41,156 bases of DNA from Opitutaceae bacterium (lineage in GTDB: Bacteria; Verrucomicrobiota; Verrucomicrobiia; Opitutales; Coraliomargaritaceae). Shown here in pieces: positions 3,022-3,874 of this stretch. The stretch's first letter is position 1; the number at the start of each line of letters is the position of its first letter. A program made the position numbers and the translations under genes. The stretch spans positions 1-41,156 of the forward strand of contig QXZH01000108.1 in assembly GCA_009886465.1 (NCBI GenBank). Direction: 5' to 3'. The notes beneath the pieces were generated by a model. That model searched no databases, was not told the DNA's origin, and was given only the letters and a program-made list of their open reading frames with translations.

Positions 3022-3057
3022 TATGTGATGCCTGCTTGCTGAAAGAATAGTCGGCAC

Positions 3058-3082
3058 AAAAAAAGCGACAAACGAGTCGCTT
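3058..3082 (-). terminator. Intrinsic terminator (minus strand), distal copy
   Basis: Minus strand AAGCGAC-tcgttt-GTCGCTT followed directly by a T run (A7 at plus 3058-3064). Confidence 0.65.
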
Positions 3083-3092
3083 CAAAATAAGC

Positions 3093-3130
3093 AAAAAAAT
3101 GGCGCAGTCCCTACCCCTAAGGACTGCGCC
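3093..3130 (-). terminator. Intrinsic terminator (minus strand), proximal copy
   Basis: Minus strand GGCGCAGTCC-ttaggggtag-GGACTGCGCC (10-bp perfect stem) then ATTTTTTT; no T tract on the plus side. Confidence 0.8.
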
Positions 3131-3437
3131 AACCATTGTCTACTTAATGCCTCTAAAGACTAATCTAAAGAGGACTTGTTGTTACCCCAAACTCCCTTGC
3201 GGGAGAAAAGTTAATTATTTGAGAGTGATTTAAGTAAAATCACGTGCAAGATGTTAATGAGCCTACGCGTGACATACTAATTTTACTTATAGTTGGTATT
3301 AATTTTACTTAATTAATGGGTTGAGGGCAAAGTGACGCGGAGCATACCCCTAGACCCCGCGCCACACTGTTTTATGCTTTGTTTTTATTACCCCAACTCC
3401 CATACATGAGAGAAAATGAAAAACCATTGGAAAGAAC

Positions 3438-3466
3438 AAAATAGTTTATAACAACTATTGTGCCAA
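3438..3466 (-). promoter_or_regulatory. Predicted sigma70-type promoter for the minus-strand ncRNA candidate
   Basis: Reverse strand TTGGCA (5/6 to TTGACA, plus 3461-3466), 17-nt spacer, TATTTT (4/6 to TATAAT, plus 3438-3443). Confidence 0.4.
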
Positions 3467-3874
3467 TTATCTCAAAGTTACCTAATTTACTCTAATTTTA
3501 AGCCACTCGTGAAATTTTCTAAAAACATCGAAGATGTCATCGCTGACTTTCGCGGTCTGCCCCACACGGTGAGCGCGTCTTCTCGGCGGGAACCCACGCC
3601 TCTTGATAGCGTGCTAATAGTACTTCAAGAACAATATAAATTAGAAAAACCCAGTCCAGAACGCAGCTTAGTCGAAAATTGGGAAAAAATCTTCGGCCCC
3701 AGTCTCTGTGAGCGCTGTCACCCCGTAAGGATCAAGGACGAACACACACTGATTGTTTCAGTGACAAATCAAACCCTTCGCTCTGAGTTACAGTTCATGA
3801 AACGCTCAGTGTTAAAAAAAGTTCAATCACTAGAGTATTGTAGCGAAATCAAGGAATTAGTGATCCGCAGTTGA
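3458..3874 (+). CDS. DUF721 / DciA-like protein
   Basis: C-terminal pattern ...HTLIVSVTNQTLRSELQFMKRSVLKKVQSL...IKELVIRS typical of DUF721. The tracked start is a TTG; an in-frame GTG at 3509 is an alternative. Confidence 0.75.
   Translation: MCQLSQSYLIYSNFKPLVKFSKNIEDVIADFRGLPHTVSASSRREPTPLDSVLIVLQEQYKLEKPSPERSLVENWEKIFGPSLCERCHPVRIKDEHTLIVSVTNQTLRSELQFMKRSVLKKVQSLEYCSEIKELVIRS

Follow-up and report, generated by a model that had tools for sequence, protein, structure and literature searches.

Qrr1-5, GlmY/GlmZ, NrsZ and CrcZ are sigma-54-driven sibling sRNAs of Gammaproteobacteria, and Yfr2 and similar cyanobacterial sRNAs form a multi-copy, order-level family characterized by one ultraconserved loop motif. 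A sigma-54-driven sRNA is exemplified by Qrr of V. fischeri (PMC10162802). Very few regulatory RNAs have been described in Verrucomicrobiota; a survey from 2022 counts 8 sRNA families in the entire Planctomycetes-Verrucomicrobia-Chlamydiae group (PMC9029176), and our literature search for Verrucomicrobia sRNAs found no papers. The Opitutales, largely marine members of this phylum, include consumers of the fucose and sulfated polysaccharides of algal blooms (PMC8857213).

Here, we report a tandem pair of related small RNA genes, located at 3093-3440 on the minus strand, between dinB and dciA, in the window, that is, the whole 41,156-nucleotide stretch of Opitutaceae DNA that was analysed. In common with Qrr1-5, GlmY/GlmZ, NrsZ and CrcZ, these are short intergenic RNAs with terminators, a predicted sigma-54 promoter and paralogous copies or repeated modules. 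They differ from the gammaproteobacterial RNAs in the lack of any sequence or Rfam match, in the candidate seed, which in Opitutales is GGGGUA and lies both in a linear segment and in the terminator loop, and in the promoter of module 2, which apparently is not of the sigma-54 type. Moreover, Hfq was not found in the relatives searched (0 of 38 above the Pfam cut-off), which makes a classic Hfq sRNA unlikely; the locus offers a clear instance of a conserved RNA, bearing a candidate seed, in bacteria where Hfq is not detectable. The repetition of a short motif in loops and single strands is shared with CsrB/CsrC/RsmY/RsmZ, but the motif is GGGGUA rather than GGA and occurs only twice per unit, and CsrA was found in none of 25 genomes of the window's family, so that a CsrA sponge is unlikely. 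The resemblance to Yfr2 lies in the multi-copy, order-level distribution and the single ultraconserved loop motif, whereas sequence and lineage are unrelated.

From 5' to 3', a unit consists of a short hairpin, UUUGGGGUAAC, a AAAGUAGA linker and a terminator with the invariant loop UAGGGGUA; sequence comparison shows this unit, about 90-120 nt long, to be conserved. GGGGUA is thereby displayed twice per unit, once single-stranded and once in the terminator loop. The elements of the locus, in the direction of the predicted transcript, are the following.

3450-3466, minus strand: predicted sigma-54-type promoter of module 1, TTGGCAC-N6-TGTT, with GG at -24 and TGT instead of TGC at -12
3397-3412, minus strand: module 1 hairpin CUCUCA-UGUA-UGGGAG, from the sequence and an alignment of 18 module-1 units
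3388-3396, minus strand: module 1 single-stranded motif UUGGGGUAA, kept in most of the 18 units
3332-3365, minus strand: module 1 long hairpin GUGGCGCGG..CCGCGUCAC with loop UAGGGGUA, two-sided changes at several stem pairs
3275-3312, minus strand: spacer element AATTAATACCAACTATAAGTAAAATTAGTAT with inverted and direct ATAAGT-like repeats (direct repeat D1)
3245-3250, minus strand: CTTGCA box, kept about 40-50 nt 5' of module 2 in most loci of the family
3192-3205, minus strand: module 2 hairpin CUCCC-GCAA-GGGAG, two-sided changes in 5 of 5 pairs across the order
3181-3191, minus strand: module 2 single-stranded motif UUUGGGGUAAC, the candidate seed, with GGUAA invariant in 34 diverse units
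3150-3173, minus strand: optional middle hairpin CCUCU..AGAGG, found in some genera only (alignment A1)
3132-3148, minus strand: unpaired linker AUUAAGUAGACAAUGGU, near-invariant in the window's family
3093-3130, minus strand: terminator hairpin (3130-3101) with invariant loop UUAGGGGUAG, then a U-tract; from the terminator scan and covariation
3056-3083, minus strand: second terminator-like hairpin (3083-3062), a backup, from the scan; missing in some members of the genus

An earlier note on this DNA had described a structured minus-strand RNA in the dinB-DUF721 gap, and every element that it named, from 3056 to 3466, is present where it was placed. Both of its terminators exist as hairpins, but the second one is not kept in all relatives. 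The built-in duplication that it saw is borne out by model R2, which matches 3090-3210 and 3323-3417 in the same genome; the order-wide span of the RNA and GGGGUA as its invariant element are additional to that account.

The long hairpin of module 1 has no U-tract downstream, and module 1 is therefore probably read through into module 2. Where the middle hairpin of module 2 is found, its stem sequence differs, and alignment A1 lacks it in the other genera; the linker core AAAGUAGA is kept over much of the order. In G022 (L015:1687-1791, minus strand), the linker AAAGTAGACAATGG, typical of module 2, is found in module 1, which suggests recombination or gene conversion between paralogues. The ATAAGT-type repeat of the spacer is a possible operator for module 2 or binding site of a regulator. 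By eye, an element of the same type is also discernible in the intermodule spacers of L008, L009, L010, L016, L018 and L021, from several genera.

The fold of 3431-3096 on the minus strand is more stable than expected (z = -4.6 versus shuffles; 0 of 100 shuffles equally stable), and the plus-strand fold is similarly stable (z = -4.4), likewise exceeding all of its shuffles. Because both strands fold stably, the assignment of the strand rests on the U-tracts, which are confined to the minus strand, on the G.U pairs, which become A.C mismatches on the plus strand, and on the promoters.

A DNA search of 57 relatives showed modules 1 and 2 to be separate conserved blocks with a poorly conserved spacer between them. 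A first covariance model, derived from alignments of 30 module-2 and 18 module-1 units, matches 142 of 273 sampled genomes of the order, in 64 of 88 genera, with one to six copies per genome, so that the RNA is common in an order with consumers of algal-bloom polysaccharides. With a second model, built on 34 diverse units, 63 of 388 genomes of the phylum were matched, 62 of them in the same order and the remaining one marginal (E = 0.005). Given the strict filters and short calibration of the model searches, failure to find a unit in any one genome counts for little. The window itself was placed near BACL24 and Coraliomargarita, and a related locus is present in Coraliomargarita sp. SDUM461004, through which the family should be testable. 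Searches of the window and 18 diverse loci against Rfam 15, at curated and lax thresholds, gave no match above the gathering threshold other than a tRNA; the best sub-threshold match was RyhB, with 24 of 55 bits.

Wide conservation in the order, together with a module 2 promoter that looks constitutive, is also what an RNA with a housekeeping role, or one that binds RNA polymerase (6S-like or otherwise structural), would present. That identity appears improbable given the lack of a match to any Rfam family, 6S included, the absence of a long bulged hairpin, the copy number of 1-6 and the sizeable share of the order's genomes in which no unit was detected.

Among the 34 diverse units, 15 of 18 pairs show compensatory changes, a result matched by none of 500 shuffles, and 98.0% of cells are paired; the covariation score is 0.56, versus 0.19 for shuffled alignments and no more than 0.12 when partners were slid. 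Covariation peaks in the terminator stem (two-sided changes in 10 of 13 pairs, 99.8% of cells paired). The Rfam comparison, the search of sister genomes and the covariation analysis thus yielded, respectively, no known family, homologues and compensatory changes, in support of the proposal in the earlier note that this is a novel ncRNA. We consider it nearly certain, from these comparisons, that the tandem RNA is a genuine conserved structured RNA outside Rfam, and very probable that it acts as a regulator. The family is absent from Rfam; its kind, a bacterial small RNA, is already known.

Sequence is also conserved where pairing does not require it, namely, in the GGUAA 3' of the first hairpin, in the linker core and in the UAGGGGUA terminator loop, such that the stems drift while GGGGUA is fixed. 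The terminator loop is closed by a conserved U.G pair. In one family (L092), the first motif has moved into a hairpin loop of its own, as if the display of GGGGUA were the feature that matters. These patterns bear on a serious rival reading, in which the two GGGGUA elements would titrate an RNA-binding protein, either dimeric or with several binding sites, and free its mRNAs, in the manner of CsrB and RsmZ acting on CsrA, but with another protein. The motif occurs in loops and single strands, 2-4 times per locus, and is invariant while the stems change; the L092 arrangement, the U.G closing pair and the lack of target enrichment (below) fit such a decoy as well. Nevertheless, CsrA was not found in the 25 genomes of the window's family, GGGGUA differs from the CsrA site ANGGA and there is no known candidate protein, and we regard a protein decoy as somewhat unlikely. 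Two other explanations of the conserved segments were rejected. Against a G-quadruplex, GAGG and GUGG also occur in the first motif, where GGGG is therefore not required; against a small peptide, the linker varies in length by one base among relatives (AATGGTTGG / AATGGTGG), which breaks any reading frame.

The DUF721 gene next to the RNA pair (3509-3874, plus strand) is dciA (PF05258, Dna[CI] antecedent), so that the RNA adjoins a replication gene. Within the window's family, the pair is usually found near dciA and dinB; families f3, f5, f20 and f22 have the unit in divergent orientation to an mcsA-like gene, and other families have other neighbours. The arrangement divergent from an mcsA-like (UVR motif) gene was seen at L078, L083, L086 and L089, in four families other than the window's, and this location is possibly ancestral. 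The position between dinB and dciA, convergent with dinB, would suit a cis element, that is, an antisense RNA, attenuator or terminator of either gene. Such a role is very improbable and largely refuted by the retention of the unit while gene context changes between families; furthermore, U-tracts occur on the minus strand only, and the coding regions are not overlapped. Judged by sequence only, this is a stand-alone intergenic gene with its own promoter and intrinsic terminator, and the changing gene context, combined with these terminators, points to action in trans.

The promoter that the earlier note had placed upstream of module 1 was misread in detail. The proposed sigma-70 promoter TTGGCA-N17-TATTTT matches at 9 of 12 positions, with about 1.3 such matches expected by chance in the region, and its TATTTT half is not conserved; conservation instead covers TTGGCAC-N6-TGTT, which resembles a sigma-54 -24/-12 promoter and predicts an RNA start at about 3439. 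This element precedes the first unit at a fixed spacing in 25 of 25 distinct sequences of the window's family, a descriptive count since the scan searched for the element itself. GTTCTTT usually follows about 16 nt downstream, and in G034 the distance from promoter to GTTCTTT is kept though the unit is much further off. Compared with the sigma-54 type TTGGCAC-N5-TTGC, the -24 half and the spacing match; the -12 half is TGT where TGC is usual, a point against the assignment, yet TGT is also found in a nifH promoter of the same genus. There, in G005 (L116:2989, plus strand, G005:C120), the same element, TTGGCACGCAGTCTGTT, precedes nifH, which is divergent from a NifA-like activator gene. Across the genus, TTGGCACR-N5-TGYWR has 36 matches versus 10 for the reversed pattern, among them sites upstream of mcsA-like genes, of glutamine synthetase and of a gene for a small peptide with repeats; the glutamine synthetase and mcsA promoters have the TGC form. 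Finally, rpoN was found in 35 of 38 genomes, and sigma-54 enhancer-binding proteins are also present. The nifH copy, the pattern excess and rpoN lead us to read the element as a sigma-54 promoter, and module 1 is likely to be sigma-54 dependent. A further point against is that units of other families showed no such sigma-54 element upstream; TTGAC-like upstream boxes are common there. Module 2 probably has a separate promoter that includes the CTTGCA box and is different from that of module 1.

The sigma-54-type promoters of the genus, noted also at L214, L216, L223, L225, L227, L234 and other loci, include that of an mcsA-like gene, TTGGCACAATTTATGCAA, in about eight genomes; a sigma-54 promoter before such a gene looks unusual. 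A sigma-54-type promoter of glutamine synthetase is found at L243. At L112, L113, L114 and L115, a sigma-54 activator gene is divergent from that of a small YRG-repeat peptide (MNNNIINYRGATTT..), which is preceded by TTGGCAYGGNGAATGCA, with the promoter at about 2604 (902 in L115).

The reading that we propose is that of a trans-acting sRNA, specific to the order and duplicated in tandem, with a GGGGUA seed and a sigma-54-fed module 1, to which, on the sequence patterns, we give an even chance; we lean slightly towards base-pairing as the way in which the RNA works. Nitrogen limitation, or another signal sensed by a sigma-54 activator, would induce module 1, which, probably reading through into module 2, would add to the basal output of the latter. 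GGGGUA would then pair with UACCCC by the start codons of a few mRNAs and block their translation independently of Hfq, sugar-uptake genes such as fucP being candidate targets. A counterpoint to pairing is that the conserved U.G closing pair exceeds the needs of a seed.

The search for targets combined pattern matching with sampled genome stretches. TACCCC near starts shows no genome-wide excess in a sample of about 900 genes from three genomes, so any target set would be small; an apparent excess of TACCCCA is not claimed, several words having been inspected. Puniceicoccaceae are described as fucose consumers with fucP (PMC8857213). The fucP gene, identified above the TIGR00885 cut-off, carries in its leader the site TTACCCCAAA, 27 nt upstream of the start, in G012 and G007 (10 bp). 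Pairing is kept in five genomes, with the variants TTGCCCTAAA, TTACCCTAAA and TTGCCCCAAA in G010, G003 and G014 still forming ten pairs. In G012, fucP ranks 2 of 317; shuffled seeds yield equally good best duplexes, and the site is therefore not significant alone. It is possible, if doubtful, that fucP is a true target.

More speculatively, and with a rather low probability, this could be an Hfq-independent, order-wide hub RNA linking a sigma-54 signal, either nitrogen limitation or stress, to the uptake of algal sulfated sugars, or one that sequesters an undescribed GGGGUA-binding regulator; either, if true, would be the first post-transcriptional control system described for Opitutales in the literature found.

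In the window's genome, a sodium:solute symporter gene has a site at about -24 and a sulfatase gene has one at codons 4-6, 2 of 16 sites in that genome, which is about the chance level. The symporter is a weak target candidate, its site being decayed or lost in other members of the genus. In G012, an autotransporter-like gene (L138, about 9220, minus strand) carries UUACCCC twice in the region of its start; one copy fits the linear version of the seed and the other the loop version.
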